Below the pieces are notes generated by a model. The model did no database searches. It worked only from the letters and a program-made list of their open reading frames with translations, and was not told where the DNA came from. A DNA stretch of 64,000 bases from the NCBI GenBank assembly GCA_016787725.1, contig JAEUTZ010000016.1, forward strand, positions 310,001-374,000. The letters are read 5' to 3'. This DNA comes from Cyclobacteriaceae bacterium (GTDB lineage: Bacteria; Bacteroidota; Bacteroidia; Cytophagales; Cyclobacteriaceae). Shown here piece after piece: positions 42,349-47,679 of the stretch (position 1 is the first letter of the stretch; each line of letters opens with the position of its first letter). The position numbers and the translations under genes are program-made.

Positions 42349-42846
42349 ATGGCGTTATTGGAAAAGAAAATGGTAATAAAGAAGTCTACCTTGCCGGGTG
42401 CCGGCAAAGGACTCTTCACAAAAGTATTCATCCCCAAAGGAACCCGCATTGTGGAATACAAAGGCGAAGTTGTCACGTGGAAAGAAGTTGAAAAAATGGC
42501 GGACGACCGCAATGGATATGTCTTTTTCTTCAATAACCTATATTGCATTGACGCCTGGAAAACAAAAAAAGGGATCGCCCATTATGCGAATGATGCAAAA
42601 GGCATTGTGCGGGTAAAGGGAATAACCAATAATTCTGAATATGTAACGGAAAAAAAGCGCTGTTATATTGAGGCCACCAAAGATATTCCGGCCGGCTCTG
42701 AAATTCTTGTTGGCTATGGAGCAGACTATTGGCAGGTGATCCGGTACAACATTCGATTAGAACAACGGAATAGAGAAAAAGCGGGTCGAATAGCCAGGAC
42801 GGAATTACCCCATCAAAAAGCGGCCAAGCGACAAAAGAAATCCTGA
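42349..42846 (+). CDS. SET-domain protein (putative lysine methyltransferase)
   Basis: A 165-residue stand-alone SET domain. The order of motifs is right: GAGKGLFTKVFIPKGTRIVEYKGEVVTW at the N-terminus, then the pseudoknot region HYANDAKGIVRVKGITNNSEYV and IPAGSEILVGYGADYWQ at the C-terminus. The usual NHS core is altered to YAND...NNSEY. A basic tail (KAGRIARTELPHQKAAKRQKKS) could bind nucleic acid. Eukaryotic-type SET proteins in bacteria methylate protein lysines; the target here is unknown. Confidence 0.83.
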   Translation: MALLEKKMVIKKSTLPGAGKGLFTKVFIPKGTRIVEYKGEVVTWKEVEKMADDRNGYVFFFNNLYCIDAWKTKKGIAHYANDAKGIVRVKGITNNSEYVTEKKRCYIEATKDIPAGSEILVGYGADYWQVIRYNIRLEQRNREKAGRIARTELPHQKAAKRQKKS

Positions 42847-42856
42847 CTGAAGCGGG

Positions 42857-43303
42857 TTAATTTTTAGCCCCTTCTTCCTTCGCCTTTTCAATTGATTCTA
42901 ACATCAACGTCTTCACTTTCCGAATCCGCTCCATCTCGGTCTCCAAATATTCACGTGCCTTCTCCTGATCCACCGAATCTGGTAAAGGATTAAACTCATG
43001 CATCCAGGTCATCATCGCGTTGCTGGCCGAGTCAAGATTGGAAATTACTTGCTCCAACTCGGCCTTCCGCTCAGCAATCATGTCTGGCGAGGAGGCGATC
43101 TTTTCCTTGAGCTCGCGCTGAAGCCGGTTGATTTCACCCATCCTGGGCATCACTTCATCATGTACATCCATTACCTGATCATACAAAGCTTGGTTTGGGC
43201 CCGATTCAGTGGAAGAGTCCTCTTGGGCACGGTGTTCACCACCTTTACCACAGGCCATTAGACTTACGAGTAGAATCAAAGCAAGACCCTTCGTGGAGTT
43301 CAT
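42857..43303 (-). CDS. Small helical lipoprotein
   Basis: A 148-residue protein. The lipobox LLVSLMAC places the acylated Cys at about residue 18. The remainder is acidic and strongly helical with heptad-like patterning (VMPRMGEINRLQRELKEKIASSP ... KAELEQVISNLDSASNAMMTWMHEF). Probably an outer-membrane-attached periplasmic coiled coil. I do not know a function. A -7-like TACCTTTG lies just upstream on the minus strand. Confidence 0.75.
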   Translation of the reverse strand: MNSTKGLALILLVSLMACGKGGEHRAQEDSSTESGPNQALYDQVMDVHDEVMPRMGEINRLQRELKEKIASSPDMIAERKAELEQVISNLDSASNAMMTWMHEFNPLPDSVDQEKAREYLETEMERIRKVKTLMLESIEKAKEEGAKN

Positions 43304-43325
43304 AGGAGTAAGATTTAGAGTTTTA

Positions 43326-43333
43326 CAAAGGTA
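43326..43333 (-). promoter_or_regulatory. Candidate -7 promoter element for the lipoprotein gene
   Basis: The minus strand reads TACCTTTG, a full match to TAnnTTTG, about 23 bases before the start codon. No TTTG is present 19 bases upstream. Confidence 0.4.
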
Positions 43334-43464
43334 TAATTAAGGGGTGATGATTGCTATAAAAATGGGCTAACAAGGGTTAGTTATAACTGATTTTTTGTAA
43401 AAAATAGGGAGCTTCTTTGCAGATGCCGATTTTTTCATTTTTCTTGGATGCACATTTGAACGAC

Positions 43465-43542
43465 ATGACGAACAACCGATTTTATTTCTTTTACTTTTTT
43501 TATCAATCCCGCGCGGGACTTGAGATTAAATCGGTTTGTTAA
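43465..43542 (+). CDS. Phe/Tyr-rich leader peptide of the aromatic amino acid operon
   Basis: A 25-codon ORF with ATG at 43465 and TAA at 43540. It begins MTNNR, continues with eight aromatic codons in a row (FYFFYFFY, 43480-43503), then QSRAGLEIKSVC. An in-frame ATG at 43423 would lengthen it to 39 residues and add more Phe codons. It lies 67 bases upstream of a prephenate dehydratase gene and just before a perfect intrinsic terminator. This is the classic arrangement of a ribosome-mediated attenuator that senses charged tRNA-Phe and tRNA-Tyr. Translation has not been shown; the call rests on codon content, position and RNA structure. Confidence 0.85.
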   Translation: MTNNRFYFFYFFYQSRAGLEIKSVC

Positions 43543-43600
43543 CTAAAAAATAAACGAAGAAACTCAGAAAGTCCCCCGCAAAACGGGGGACTTTCTTTTT
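43507..43600 (+). promoter_or_regulatory. Transcription attenuator upstream of pheA
   Basis: The terminator has a perfect 12-bp stem, GAAAGTCCCCCG (43567-43578) / CGGGGGACTTTC (43584-43595), a CAAAA loop, then TTTTT. Upstream, GCGCGGGACTT (43511-43521) can pair with AAGTCCCCCGC (43569-43579) at 10 of 11 positions and so act as antiterminator. TCCC-GCGC-GGGA (43507-43518) can sequester that segment. Stalling at the Phe/Tyr codons directly upstream would be expected to favour the antiterminator and let transcription reach pheA. Confidence 0.85.
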
Positions 43601-43609
43601 GACAGGATT

Positions 43610-44452
43610 ATGACCAAAAAGAAGAAACCAACGATTGCCATTCAGGGTATCGCTACCAGCTTTCATGAAGTAGCTGCGATGCAATACTTTCAGAAGCCCA
43701 TCCAGACGATCGAGTGCCTTACCTTTCATGCATTGTGCGAATCGCTGAAAAATGGAGAATCGGATTTTGCTGTCATGGCCATTGAGAACTCGATTGCAGG
43801 CAGCATTTTGCCCAACTACTTTCTATTGCAGGAATACCATTTCTCAATCATCGGTGAAGTATACTTACCCATTCACATGCACCTATTGGCATTGCCTGGC
43901 GTCAGGTTGAGTGAGATTAAAACCATTGAATCACATCCGATGGCCATCAGGCAATGTTCAGATTACCTTTACAAGTTGAACGGTGTTCAAATTATGGAGA
44001 GTGAGGACACGGCCCTCTCTGCACGAAAGGTAAAAGAGCAAAAACTGAAGACAACGGGAGCCATTGCCAATGAATATGCAGCAAAAAAGTTTGGACTGCA
44101 GATTTTAGAGAAGCGAATTGAAACGCATAAGAAGAACTTCACCCGGTTCCTGATTTTAACCCGCAAGTCAAAAGATAACATCGAAAGCAACAAAGCTTCG
44201 TTGTGTTTTGAAGTTGCCAATGAGGTAGGGAGCCTGGCGGAAGCGTTAATGACGTTCAAAAATAACAGCATTAACCTTTCTAAAATCCAATCGATACCCA
44301 TTATCGGAAAGCCGAGTGAATATTCCATTCACATCGATGTAGAGTGGCGTAAACGGAAAAGTTATGATCAGGCCATACAGGCGGTTTTGCGGCAAGTAAA
44401 GAACCTGAACATTTTAGGTGAGTATAAAAAAGCGAAAATTGAATACGTATAG
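43610..44452 (+). CDS. pheA: Prephenate dehydratase
   Basis: A 280-residue enzyme converting prephenate to phenylpyruvate. The PDT domain contains IAIQGIATSFHEVAAMQYF, FAVMAIENSIAGSILPNYFLL and KKNFTRFLIL, where the TRF triplet is catalytic. A C-terminal ACT domain (LCFEVANEVGSLAEALMTFKNNSINLSKIQSIPI, with ESRP replaced by IPI-GKPSEY) would give Phe feedback control. There is no fused chorismate mutase; that activity is in the last gene of the operon. It starts 10 bases after the attenuator T-run. Confidence 0.95.
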   Translation: MTKKKKPTIAIQGIATSFHEVAAMQYFQKPIQTIECLTFHALCESLKNGESDFAVMAIENSIAGSILPNYFLLQEYHFSIIGEVYLPIHMHLLALPGVRLSEIKTIESHPMAIRQCSDYLYKLNGVQIMESEDTALSARKVKEQKLKTTGAIANEYAAKKFGLQILEKRIETHKKNFTRFLILTRKSKDNIESNKASLCFEVANEVGSLAEALMTFKNNSINLSKIQSIPIIGKPSEYSIHIDVEWRKRKSYDQAIQAVLRQVKNLNILGEYKKAKIEYV

Positions 44453-44454
44453 TG

Positions 44455-45648
44455 ATGATAAAAACAGCCAACAGAATTGAGCGAGTAGAGGAGTATTACT
44501 TCAGTAAGAAGCTGGCAGAAGTGCGGGGTTTAGACACGCCCGAGTTTCCGGTAATCAATCTTGGAATCGGCAGCCCGGACCTTGCACCTACGTCAAAAAC
44601 CATCGCGGCATTGATTACTACCGCACAAAAGGAGAATAGTCATGGTTACCAAAGCTATAAAGGTATACCTGCGTTGCGGCAGGCAATTGGAAACTTTTAT
44701 CAGAACACATACAAAGTTGGGCTCAATCCAGAAACCGAGATTCTCCCGCTCATGGGTTCCAAGGAGGGCATCATGCACATTACACTCGCCTTTGTTAATG
44801 AAGGTGAGGAGGTATTGATCCCAAATCCAGGGTATCCTACCTATGCTTCCGTGGCCAACCTGGTGGGGGCTAAGGTAAGCACCTATGCATTAAAGGAGTC
44901 GCTGGATTGGGGCATTGATATTGAGGAGTTGAAACGCAGGGATTTATCACATGTGAAAATCATGTGGGTGAATTTTCCACACATGCCGACAGGGCGCGTG
45001 GCTTCATCGGCAGAATTGAAAGAATTGGTAGATCTTGCCCGTGCCAATAATTTCCTGATTGTTAATGATAATCCGTATTCACTCATTTTGAATGATGCGC
45101 CCATTAGCATTCTTGCAATAGCAGGGGCATCAGAGGTAGCCTTGGAATTGAACTCCCTTAGTAAATCACACAACCTCGCTGGCTGGCGTATTGGTTGGGT
45201 GGCCGGTAAGAAGGAATACATTGATTCCGTACTGCGTGTAAAAAGTAATATGGATTCGGGTATGTTTCTTGGACTGCAGCACGCGGCTGTGGAGGCCCTT
45301 CAGAATGGACCGGAGTGGTTCCATGATTTAAATGCTGTCTATAGAAAGCGCAGGGCAGCTGCAAGTAAGATATTGGATTCATTGGGATGTAACTATTCTG
45401 ATAAACAATCCGGACTTTTTAGTTGGGCAAAAGTACCCGATCGGGTGCGCGATGTAGAAAAGTGGATTGATGAGATCCTATACGAGACCCATGTGTTTAT
45501 TACTCCGGGCTTTATTTTTGGCGATGCGGGGAAGCGACACATTCGGATTTCCTTGTGTGCTCCCGAAGAAAAATTTCTGGAAGCAAATACCCGGATCGCA
45601 AAATTTTTTAAGAGCAAATCAGTATTGGCAAACCTGCGTGTACTATGA
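44455..45648 (+). CDS. Class I/II aminotransferase (aromatic amino acid operon)
   Basis: A 397-residue PLP enzyme. NLGIGSPDLAPTSKTI, SYKGIPALRQAIGNFY, NFPHMPTGRVAS (the NPTG region, with an unusual HM), VNDNPYSLI and the PLP-lysine segment SLSKSHNLAGWRIGWVAGKK are present. Its place between pheA and tyrA suggests it transaminates phenylpyruvate and hydroxyphenylpyruvate to Phe and Tyr, although an aspartate or other specificity cannot be excluded. It starts 2 bases after pheA (a GTG at 44452 is also possible) and overlaps tyrA by 4 bases. Confidence 0.9.
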   Translation: MIKTANRIERVEEYYFSKKLAEVRGLDTPEFPVINLGIGSPDLAPTSKTIAALITTAQKENSHGYQSYKGIPALRQAIGNFYQNTYKVGLNPETEILPLMGSKEGIMHITLAFVNEGEEVLIPNPGYPTYASVANLVGAKVSTYALKESLDWGIDIEELKRRDLSHVKIMWVNFPHMPTGRVASSAELKELVDLARANNFLIVNDNPYSLILNDAPISILAIAGASEVALELNSLSKSHNLAGWRIGWVAGKKEYIDSVLRVKSNMDSGMFLGLQHAAVEALQNGPEWFHDLNAVYRKRRAAASKILDSLGCNYSDKQSGLFSWAKVPDRVRDVEKWIDEILYETHVFITPGFIFGDAGKRHIRISLCAPEEKFLEANTRIAKFFKSKSVLANLRVL

Positions 45649-46544
45649 AGGCCACCGTAATTGGATTAGGACTTATTGGGGGCTCAATCGCACTGGGGTT
45701 GCGCAAGGCTGGTCTCACAAAAGAGATCCTTGGGGTGGATGTTAATCCGGGTCATGGAATTAAAGCGGTGGAATTAGGACTGGTTGATAAAATCGTAACG
45801 GAAGATGTTGCCCTGGCTACCTCGGATTTGATTGTACTATCCATTCCAGTAAATGCATTGAATGCTTTTCTACCTGCCGTGCTGGATGCCATTAAGAAGG
45901 ATGCCGTAGTGATCGATGCAGGTTCTACGAAAGCGGCCATTTGCAAGTCAGTGGCAAACCACCCTAAACGCGCTCAATTTGTAGCGGCCCACCCGATTGC
46001 CGGAACTGAAAATTCTGGTCCACAAGCAGCATTTCATGGCTTGTTCAAAGGTAAGACCAATATCATATGTGAAGCTGGCAAGTCCTCCATAGACGCATTG
46101 AAGGTAGCCATGCAGATTTTTGATGCTCTGGAAATGAAAACCATTTTCATGGAAGCAGAAGAGCACGACCGACATGTAGCCTATGTATCGCACCTCTCGC
46201 ACGTAAGTTCCTTCCTGCTCGGTCAAACTGTTCTGGACATCGAAAAAGATGAGAAGAATATTTTTGATCTGGCCGGTAGTGGCTTTGCTTCTACCGTTCG
46301 ATTGGCAAAAAGTTCACCAGATATGTGGACTCCAATCTTTGAGCAAAATGTTGAATACCTGAGCCAGGCCTTGTTGGAATACATCATGCACTTGCAAAAG
46401 TTTCATTATCACCTGATGAAGCACGACACAAAAGAAATCCATCGCATTATGTCAATGGCCAATGAAATTCGCAGGGTATTGGACCAACATTCCGATCAAC
46501 AAACTCAACCCGATTCTAAAAAACCTGAACCAACGTTAAACTAA
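45645..46544 (+). CDS. tyrA: Prephenate dehydrogenase
   Basis: A 299-residue enzyme giving 4-hydroxyphenylpyruvate for Tyr synthesis. The Rossmann motif VIGLGLIGGSIALGLRKAG, then ILGVDVNPGH with the acidic residue that favours NAD, VLSIPVNA, AAHPIAGTENSGP (catalytic His) and EHDRHVAYVSHLSHVSSFLL are clear. There is no C-terminal ACT domain, so feedback control may be absent at this step. It overlaps the aminotransferase by ATGA. Confidence 0.94.
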   Translation: MKATVIGLGLIGGSIALGLRKAGLTKEILGVDVNPGHGIKAVELGLVDKIVTEDVALATSDLIVLSIPVNALNAFLPAVLDAIKKDAVVIDAGSTKAAICKSVANHPKRAQFVAAHPIAGTENSGPQAAFHGLFKGKTNIICEAGKSSIDALKVAMQIFDALEMKTIFMEAEEHDRHVAYVSHLSHVSSFLLGQTVLDIEKDEKNIFDLAGSGFASTVRLAKSSPDMWTPIFEQNVEYLSQALLEYIMHLQKFHYHLMKHDTKEIHRIMSMANEIRRVLDQHSDQQTQPDSKKPEPTLN

Positions 46545-46575: not shown

Positions 46576-47679
46576 ATGACAAAGAAAGGATTACAGCTCG
46601 AGCCGATTTCTTCCTGGATGAAGGTAAATCGCCCGATTATCATTAGCGGACCTTGCAGTGCCGAAACGGAAGAGCAAACCGTAGCCACGGCCAAGCAAGT
46701 GGCAGCGACCGGAAAAGTTCATGCCTTGCGAGCCGGAATTTGGAAACCCCGCACCCGGCCGGGTCAATATGAGGGTGCCGGTAATGAAGGATTGAAGTGG
46801 CTGATCAGTGCCAAGAAGGAGACGGGATTGCCGGTTACAACTGAAGTGGCGAATGCGGCCCACGTGGAAGCCTGTTTAAAAGCGGGAGTCGACTTTTTGT
46901 GGGTGGGTGCCCGCACCACGGTAAATCCTTTTTCAGTTCAGGAAGTGGCCGATGCATTGAAGGGAGTGGATATACCCGTCCTTGTAAAAAACCCAATTAA
47001 CCCGGATGTGGAATTGTGGTTAGGTGCGTTGGAGCGTTTAAACAAAGCCGGCATTACGAAACTGGCTGCCATTCACCGCGGGTTCTCTTCCTTTGAAAAG
47101 GGACCCTTCCGGAACGCACCCATGTGGGATTTAGCCATTGAATTGAAAACACGCGTACCGGAATTGGATATGATTTGCGACCCCAGCCACATTGCCGGAA
47201 CCCGTGATCTTATTTCCCTCATCTCTCAGAAAGCACTTGACCTTGATATGGCTGGTTTGATGATTGAGAGCCACATCAACCCCGATGCCGCCTGGAGTGA
47301 TGCCAAGCAGCAAGTGACCCCGGCTGTGCTGAGTAAAATTATCAGCGACCTGGTGGTACGGACCCAAACGGTTGAAAACAAAAGCTTCAAGGATACCCTT
47401 AGTATTTTGCGTGAGCAGATCGACCACCTTGATGACGAAATCATGCAGAAACTTTCTCAACGTATGAAAATCTCTGAGAAGATTGGACAGTATAAAAAAG
47501 AAAATAACGTAACCATCCTTCAGGTCAATCGCTGGGAAGAAATTATACAAACCCGCATTGCCTTGTGTAAGGCGATGGGGTTGAGTGAAGAGTTTACCAC
47601 AGAGCTGCTAAAGCTGATTCATAACGAATCTATTCAGATTCAGACCAAGGTGATGAACCGGGTTGCAGAACGGGTATAA
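46576..47679 (+). CDS. Bifunctional DAHP synthase / chorismate mutase
   Basis: A 367-residue fusion. Residues of about 15-265 form a type I-beta DAHP synthase (ISGPCSAETEEQ, LRAGIWKPRTRPGQYEGAGNEGL, FLWVGARTTVNPF, VKNPINPD, AIHRGFS, DPSHIAGTRDL). Residues of about 275-360 are an AroQ chorismate mutase (ILREQIDHLDDEIMQKLSQRMKISEKIGQYKKENNVTILQ). This C-terminal fusion is known from Bacteroidota such as Prevotella, where the mutase domain confers prephenate inhibition on the synthase. It supplies both the first step of the pathway and the branch-point step. It is the last gene of the attenuated operon. Confidence 0.95.
   Translation: MTKKGLQLEPISSWMKVNRPIIISGPCSAETEEQTVATAKQVAATGKVHALRAGIWKPRTRPGQYEGAGNEGLKWLISAKKETGLPVTTEVANAAHVEACLKAGVDFLWVGARTTVNPFSVQEVADALKGVDIPVLVKNPINPDVELWLGALERLNKAGITKLAAIHRGFSSFEKGPFRNAPMWDLAIELKTRVPELDMICDPSHIAGTRDLISLISQKALDLDMAGLMIESHINPDAAWSDAKQQVTPAVLSKIISDLVVRTQTVENKSFKDTLSILREQIDHLDDEIMQKLSQRMKISEKIGQYKKENNVTILQVNRWEEIIQTRIALCKAMGLSEEFTTELLKLIHNESIQIQTKVMNRVAERV

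Follow-up and report, generated by a model that had tools for sequence, protein, structure and literature searches.

How expression of the genes for phenylalanine and tyrosine biosynthesis might be controlled is the question raised by an operon in the window (the whole stretch of 64,000 nucleotides that was analysed, from contig JAEUTZ010000016.1 of a Cyclobacteriaceae bacterium). By Pfam matches above cut-off, the four genes encode prephenate dehydratase, an aminotransferase, prephenate dehydrogenase and a DAHP synthase-chorismate mutase, in agreement with the preliminary description of this DNA, which held that the operon makes Phe and Tyr; the cut-off of an NCBIfam equivalog is reached within the operon by the prephenate dehydrogenase only. 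The genes and their upstream neighbour are:

43610..44452, + strand: pheA, prephenate dehydratase, first gene of the operon (PF00800, 1.9e-56)
44452..45648, + strand: class I/II aminotransferase (PF00155, 1.6e-61)
45645..46544, + strand: tyrA, prephenate dehydrogenase (PF02153, 6.8e-34; NF006307 above cut-off)
46576..47679, + strand: DAHP synthase fused to chorismate mutase (PF00793 and PF01817)
42857-43303, - strand: divergent ORF upstream of the leader

The comparisons with close relatives below rest on the best 80 of 157 pheA relatives in named genomes, which makes this close set one of near kin that are partly redundant. The gene order pheA-aminotransferase-tyrA-DAHP synthase/chorismate mutase is complete in 67 of these 80 loci; the first two or three genes are present at nine further loci, including truncated ones, pheA and DAHP synthase only at two, and pheA alone at two. 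A small SET-domain protein (PF00856) is encoded at 42349-42846 of the window, two genes ahead of the leader. No promoter was fixed. A sigma-70 scan of 43300-43700 found two sites, one of them on the + strand (43322-43351), versus 0.9 (sd 0.8) in shuffled sequences, and TAnnTTTG-like matches are scattered, at some loci with a cluster 23-28 nt before the ATG.

Between the divergent ORF and pheA lie a short ORF and a series of RNA segments that can pair in more than one way:

43465..43542, + strand: leader peptide ORF of 25 aa, MTNNRFYFFYFFYQSRAGLEIKSVC (direct reading; conserved in relatives)
43466..43488, + strand: 5' arm of stem P (the outer stem), made of the first leader codons and the start of the control run (fold; species-swap test)
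43508..43517, + strand: small hairpin CCC-GCGC-GGG, able to hide the antiterminator arm (three or more pairs in 70 of 73 leaders from the best 80 of 157 relatives)
43511..43521, + strand: antiterminator 5' arm (segment 2), GCGCGGGACTT, within the leader ORF (pairing with segment 3)
43522..43541, + strand: 3' arm of stem P, directly 3' of the antiterminator arm (fold; species-swap test; alignment test)
43566..43579, + strand: segment 3, the terminator left arm and antiterminator 3' arm (pairing conserved)
43584..43600, + strand: segment 4, the terminator right arm and U run (pairing conserved)

Direct reading of the leader ORF returned the coordinates given in the preliminary description and, at 43480-43503, the control run FYFFYFFY with the same count of five Phe and three Tyr codons, so that eight of eight residues are aromatic. 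Position 43423, from which the element had been said to start, is an in-frame upstream ATG in the window; where upstream stretches were read, the in-frame extension is found in L036 but not in L031 or L032. GCGCGGGACTT (43511-43521) can pair with AAGTCCCCCGC (43569-43579) at 10 of 11 positions, as had been noted for this segment and the terminator left arm, and the small competing hairpin was located with arms CCC at 43508-43510 and GGG at 43515-43517. The terminator had been described as a perfect 12-bp stem at 43567-43600; it is perfect, but it starts at 43566 and has 13 pairs (43566-43578 with 43584-43596) around the loop CAAAA, with TTTT running to 43600. The upstream neighbour is divergent, so the only + strand transcript that this terminator would obviously end is that of its own operon. 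The leader has three features expected of a ribosome-mediated transcription attenuator: a short ORF, translatable by its sequence, that is rich in codons for the products of the operon; an intrinsic terminator (13-bp stem and U4) between the ORF and the first gene; and a mutually exclusive antiterminator that shares the terminator left arm.

The 198-nt RNA folds to -47.4 kcal/mol versus a shuffled mean of -34.9 (z -3.3; none of 200 dinucleotide shuffles is as low), and its minimum-energy fold contains the outer stem and the terminator. A consensus terminator scan gave the + strand stem just five pairs; the scan's tail rule takes in the stem's own U, which accounts for the low figure. The same scan also detects the stem 43566-43596 on the - strand, where a T-rich stretch follows it too, and the stem might work in both directions. 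The three-part GGGACT pattern occurs once in the genome, at the pheA leader locus, and the idea of GGGACT as a general attenuator part of this genome was therefore rejected for exact copies.

The element very probably works by classical ribosome-mediated transcription attenuation, with charged tRNA-Phe and tRNA-Tyr as the signals sensed. We infer that the leader is transcribed by RNA polymerase with a ribosome translating the short ORF behind it. Under scarcity of Phe- or Tyr-tRNA this ribosome would stall within FYFFYFFY, where its footprint would take in some of the stem P 5' arm and, when it stands at later codons, some of the small hairpin. Because the control run ends 11 nt before GGGACTT, a stalled ribosome would leave GGGACTT free to pair with the terminator left arm once that arm has been made; the terminator would not form and the operon would be transcribed. 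If Phe and Tyr are both plentiful, the ribosome would move past the antiterminator arm as far as the stop codon, with segment 2 hidden or refolded, and the 13-bp terminator would stop transcription before pheA.

The arrangement is kept in many relatives, for which reason it is considered real. With a leader defined as at least five of F, Y and W in eight residues followed by a terminator-like hairpin, an aromatic mini-ORF and terminator precede pheA at 75 of the 79 loci of the close set that have upstream DNA (all 80 except L102), and the conservation of the F/Y run, terminator and antiterminator arm in close relatives, which the preliminary description had proposed as a check, was borne out. 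No such leader was found at the other four of the 79 loci (L106, L108, L109, L110), which belong to two Flavobacteriales and two Draconibacterium. Outside Cytophagales, leaders of the close set are found in Sphingobacteriales (L100, L101), in Paludibacter (L105) and on a contig labelled Acidobacteria (L104; JACPDH010000099.1). The last has the same operon with a pheA that is 63% identical; its leader (RYYFWY) is a GC-rich one that keeps matching stems, and the case is one of transfer or of a misbinned contig. In L051 (CP058703.1), one of the 75, a single base is missing from the aromatic run, and G024, seemingly the same assembly, has stop codons inside pheA; both defects are probably sequencing errors of that assembly. 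L051 was omitted from the codon, spacing and folding counts that follow, two identical duplicates were dropped, and codon statistics were taken over the eight codons ending 10-12 nt before the antiterminator arm in 72 leaders from the best 80 of 157 relatives. In these leaders, 541 of 576 control codons encode F, Y or W, the third base is T or C in 546 of 576, and T (294 of 576) and A (237 of 576) make up most second bases, which indicates selection on aromatic codons and no mere T-rich stretch. Phe and Tyr codons occur together in all 72, in support of the earlier suggestion, made from sequence, that one switch would serve both amino acids. One Trp codon is also present in 22 of the 72. Leaders with one Trp codon among their aromatic residues (L036, L041, L053, L056, L060, L068, L070-L074, L079, L083, L087, L089-L093, L103-L105 and L107) have it in sequence contexts of several kinds, and may add sensing of Trp. 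The distance from the end of the last aromatic codon to segment 2 is 11 nt in 50 and 9-12 nt in 65 of the 72 leaders, so a ribosome stalled at a control codon would leave segment 2 exposed.

A peptide that is kept in frame and limited to aromatic residues might also be an arrest peptide, in which the nascent aromatic chain together with a small-molecule ligand would stall the ribosome and the RNA would refold as a result; stalling within the run would then give the same RNA outcome. Arrest peptides rely on particular residues. Among the leaders F and Y come in differing orders (RFYFFYFFY, NTFFYFYYFF and YFWFYYYYF are examples), and this conservation of composition and not of sequence is what codon counting predicts, which makes an arrest peptide very unlikely here and favours the attenuator that counts Phe and Tyr codons.

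The pairing of the RNA segments on which this attenuator would depend was tabulated for 73 rows of the best 80 of 157 relatives (L091 was unanchored). Of 511 core cells, 510 have segment 4 paired with segment 3, and 484 have the segment 2 core GGGACTT paired with segment 3, the latter count leaning upward because anchoring required GGG in segment 2. Coordinated changes of segments 2, 3 and 4 take A-U-A to G-C-G in four of the 73 rows and C-G-C to U-A-U in four. Where segment 3 has C for U (5 of 73 rows), segment 4 has changed to G in five of five and segment 2 to G in four of five; where it has A for G (5 of 73 rows), segment 4 has changed to U in five of five and segment 2 to U in four of five. 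Many other rows use G-U pairs. On an alignment of 70 rows (A1, from which L100, L101, L105 and L107 were left out), the terminator helix is paired in 97.1% of cells, with changes on both sides at 7 of 12 pairs, and the antiterminator is paired in 90.7%, versus 19.9-63.5% in versions slid along the alignment, with changes on both sides at 2 of 8 pairs. Two of five covariation measures for the antiterminator on A1 were not above shuffles, and sliding it by +1 column gave more both-side changes than the true register; co-variation of the antiterminator within the close set is modest because the segment 2 core varies so little.

Stem P is paired in 74.5% of cells on A1, and its pairing and covariation score are above those of slid versions. 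On the same alignment its number of pairs with both-side changes is not above shuffles, two slid versions have more cells with both-side changes than the true register, and for stem P and the terminator taken together the count of both-side-change pairs is not above shuffles (447 of 500 reach the same count). In a species-swap test that is free of A1 (73 rows, with a statistic that ignores relatedness), the own duplex of stem P has a mean of -15.0 kcal/mol versus -10.7 kcal/mol when arms are swapped between species, and none of 5000 permutations is as low. The RNAalifold consensus of A1 contains the small hairpin and the terminator only.

A survey of 168 genomes of the class yielded 46 pheA matches at E 1e-10, a threshold that misses divergent pheA genes, and the upstream DNA of the 45 other than the window's own was examined. 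At least six aromatic residues in eight are encoded upstream of 27 of the 45 (28 of 46 with the window), in 14 families as labelled by the survey tool; five more pheA genes have five aromatic residues in eight, and 13 of 46 have four or fewer. Three genomes of the window's order but of other families (G050, G051 and G054, outside the 46) have no leader. Among survey leaders with at least five aromatic residues, the script's rule finds a terminator in 28 of 32 and none in 4 of 32. Across families, the duplexes of segments 2 and 3 in 28 leaders have a mean of -12.0 kcal/mol versus -8.8 (sd 0.43) when permuted, a value reached in none of 5000 permutations, and the duplex reaches -8 kcal/mol in 25 of the 28; the other three (L162, L175, L178) miss this criterion and have no convincing antiterminator. 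The GGGACT core is replaced in segment 2 and in both terminator arms of L172, L176, L177 and L183, and the pairs neighbouring the core differ in L168, L170 and L181. This result across families is the most powerful argument for selection acting on the antiterminator as a pairing. The co-variation that the preliminary description had also proposed as a check is modest within the close set and clear across families. L173, L180 and L182, all of family f52, have very aromatic leaders, such as YYFFFYFYFYHKVEREFVC, without a terminator by the script's rule, and perhaps have a different control step; L181, of the same family, has a terminator. A covariance model of the element (R1) matches at E 0.01 in 75 of 395 genomes, many of the matches being weak.

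Equilibrium folding of the 72 leaders (best 80 of 157), with a ribosome mask of one footprint size and before the terminator right arm is made, is consistent with antitermination by a stalled ribosome. With the mask on the control codons, the antiterminator has a mean probability of at least 0.5 in all 72 leaders (69 of 72 with the mask at the first control codon, and likewise 69 of 72 at the last). With no ribosome, the antiterminator is favoured in 50 of the 72, with a probability of 0.96 in the window. For the ribosome that has reached the stop codon, the leaders divide by ORF length. In 35 short-ORF leaders no more than 7 nt separate the stop codon from segment 2, and masking the stop codon removes the antiterminator in every one (0 of 35 reach 0.5). 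In 37 long-ORF leaders, the window's among them, the stop codon is 12-21 nt further, and with the mask there the antiterminator is still at least 0.5 in 33 of 37 and 0.99 in the window; the mask hides it in the remaining 4 of 37, which do not include the window. A ribosome standing on segment 2 hides this segment in all 37 long-ORF models. Termination in fed cells that carry long-ORF leaders is thus the weak point of the model. It would have to be enforced there by timing, by earlier formation of stem P and the small hairpin, or by a ribosome inside the antiterminator loop. The preliminary description of a complete attenuator stands as to the leader, the antiterminator and the terminator, but the small hairpin and stem P are insufficient for termination in fed cells according to equilibrium folding of leaders of the window's clade.

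The terminator is the best-paired helix of the element, and with the full RNA nearly every equilibrium model is terminated (mean P(T) from 0.96 to 1.00), as would be the case if it were a constitutive partial terminator that simply lowers expression of the operon, the mini-ORF being a by-product of a T-rich leader. Mostly T or C at the third positions of the control codons, the 9-12 nt spacing and a second, exclusive pairing that co-varies would be purposeless in such an element; moreover, only 5 of 980 mononucleotide shuffles of 49 upstream regions reach the survey criterion of six aromatic residues in eight, and the window has eight of eight, so that this account is highly improbable. Products of trp attenuators can act in trans, and in a further reading the terminated leader would serve as a small regulatory RNA, or the peptide as a functional small protein, with no attenuation of pheA. 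The sole database hint of this is a weak match to the Bacteroides thetaiotaomicron sRNA BTnc231 (23.9 bits, cut-off 80.4). Against this reading, the C-terminal half of the peptide and its length vary (18 to 29 aa, the frame-shifted L051 aside) and the element stays before pheA at 75 of 79 loci (best 80 of 157), leaving hardly any likelihood for it.

The attenuator of Phe and Tyr supply resembles known systems in part. The enterobacterial pheA leader is Phe-only. Its Rfam family, Phe_leader (RF01859), is like the window in having a leader peptide with aromatic codons, a terminator and a competing stem; it differs in that the window has codons for Phe and Tyr and not Phe alone, the antiterminator arm of the window is inside the ORF, and its operon adds tyrA and DAHP synthase. 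Over the full model the window reaches 43.5 bits, short of the 55 set for gathering, and was not assigned to the family; one of 20 near relatives (L006) barely passes the threshold with 55.2 bits, and 20 survey loci compared with Rfam at E 0.01 gave one sub-threshold Phe_leader match of 39.3 bits. Only four tRNAs in the window reach Rfam thresholds, and no T-box or riboswitch was among the 20 weak Rfam matches of 43300-43660. The enterobacterial ilvGMEDA and thrABC operons each have a single leader peptide in which the codons of two or more amino acids are counted, as predicted for the window, but these operons concern other amino acids and are proteobacterial. The Bacteroid-trp RNA (RF01692), which we take to be a trp leader-peptide RNA, was rejected as an identity of the element, with no match in the window at E 5 and none genome-wide at E 0.001. 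It is listed in Table 1 of PMC2864571 as a candidate cis-regulatory RNA of Bacteroidetes.

According to its passage on the subject, a 2010 survey at first named only Proteobacteria and Actinobacteria as hosts of leader attenuation and then added Firmicutes (PMC2965389). A putative attenuator of the B. thetaiotaomicron operon pheA > hisHb > aroAI-beta-aroQ > tyrA, derived from Merino's prediction site, was entered in Table 7 of a 2005 study (PMC1173090); this operon has the same gene content as the window's in a different order, and neither a leader peptide nor codon specificity is part of the table entry. A structured pheA 5' element without an Rfam hit was described in 2021 in Flavobacterium psychrophilum and also in other genera of Flavobacteriaceae, and leader-peptide attenuation was suggested for F. 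psychrophilum amino-acid operons in general (PMC9723704); as presented in the cited passages, the element is without codon specificity, mechanism or distribution beyond the family. The view in the preliminary description that no attenuator had been described for this Phe/Tyr operon must therefore be narrowed to allow for the predicted attenuator (PMC1173090) and the pheA 5' element (PMC9723704), but it holds for Phe/Tyr codon specificity, of which the cited parts of these sources make no mention. More broadly, no report of a Phe/Tyr leader peptide in Bacteroidota appears among the literature matches listed, in so far as their contents were available. A study by Lopatovskaya et al. in 2010 reportedly covers several phyla and could include a Phe/Tyr attenuator. 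The class of mechanism is classical; the dual-codon, class-wide architecture is new here.

Tentatively, the element may be one instance of an ancient attenuator across the class Bacteroidia that counts codons for Phe, Tyr and, in several lineages, Trp in a single leader to control entry into aromatic biosynthesis, with an architecture of its own in which the antiterminator arm is inside the ORF and a long stem made by the first codons closes over the control region. If this is true, a single RNA in the lineages with Trp codons would respond to each of the three amino acids in which the common pathway ends. Leader-peptide attenuation is a textbook case from Proteobacteria. In the portions of the literature examined it is little documented in Bacteroidota, and a class-wide Phe/Tyr attenuator would explain how synthesis of aromatic amino acids may be controlled in a major bacterial group of gut, soil and water. 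The comparison also provides R1 as a first covariance model, points to a small ORF that is not annotated ahead of many pheA operons, and offers a natural series (F/Y order, added Trp codon and two ORF lengths) for testing ribosome position against fold.

Similar leaders were observed before other amino-acid genes of the same genome, with gene starts that are approximate for the hisG, trpE, thrA-like and ilvD-like upstream regions. Upstream of hisG (L197; G000:C22:44300-45260), at about 594-710, the mini-ORF MSNTQNIHGHHHHATRISGRSLF (HGHHHH) has a terminator-like hairpin of 14 bp behind it, and the two together form a candidate His attenuator. Two ilvD-like genes have no such leader upstream. 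Upstream of trpE (L198; G000:C23:2600-3500), at about 670-785, the mini-ORF MNRITTYTAGWWHKSNFDW (WW) and a terminator-like hairpin make up a candidate Trp attenuator that Bacteroid-trp (RF01692) did not detect in the genome. The reverse strand upstream of a thrA-like gene (L199; G000:C22:96000-97700) has a mini-ORF ending SIETTTTTITG, a possible Thr leader, with no terminator above the script's threshold. With these candidates before hisG, trpE and the thrA-like gene, leader-peptide attenuation may be a habit of the lineage, and the Phe/Tyr leader one of a set.
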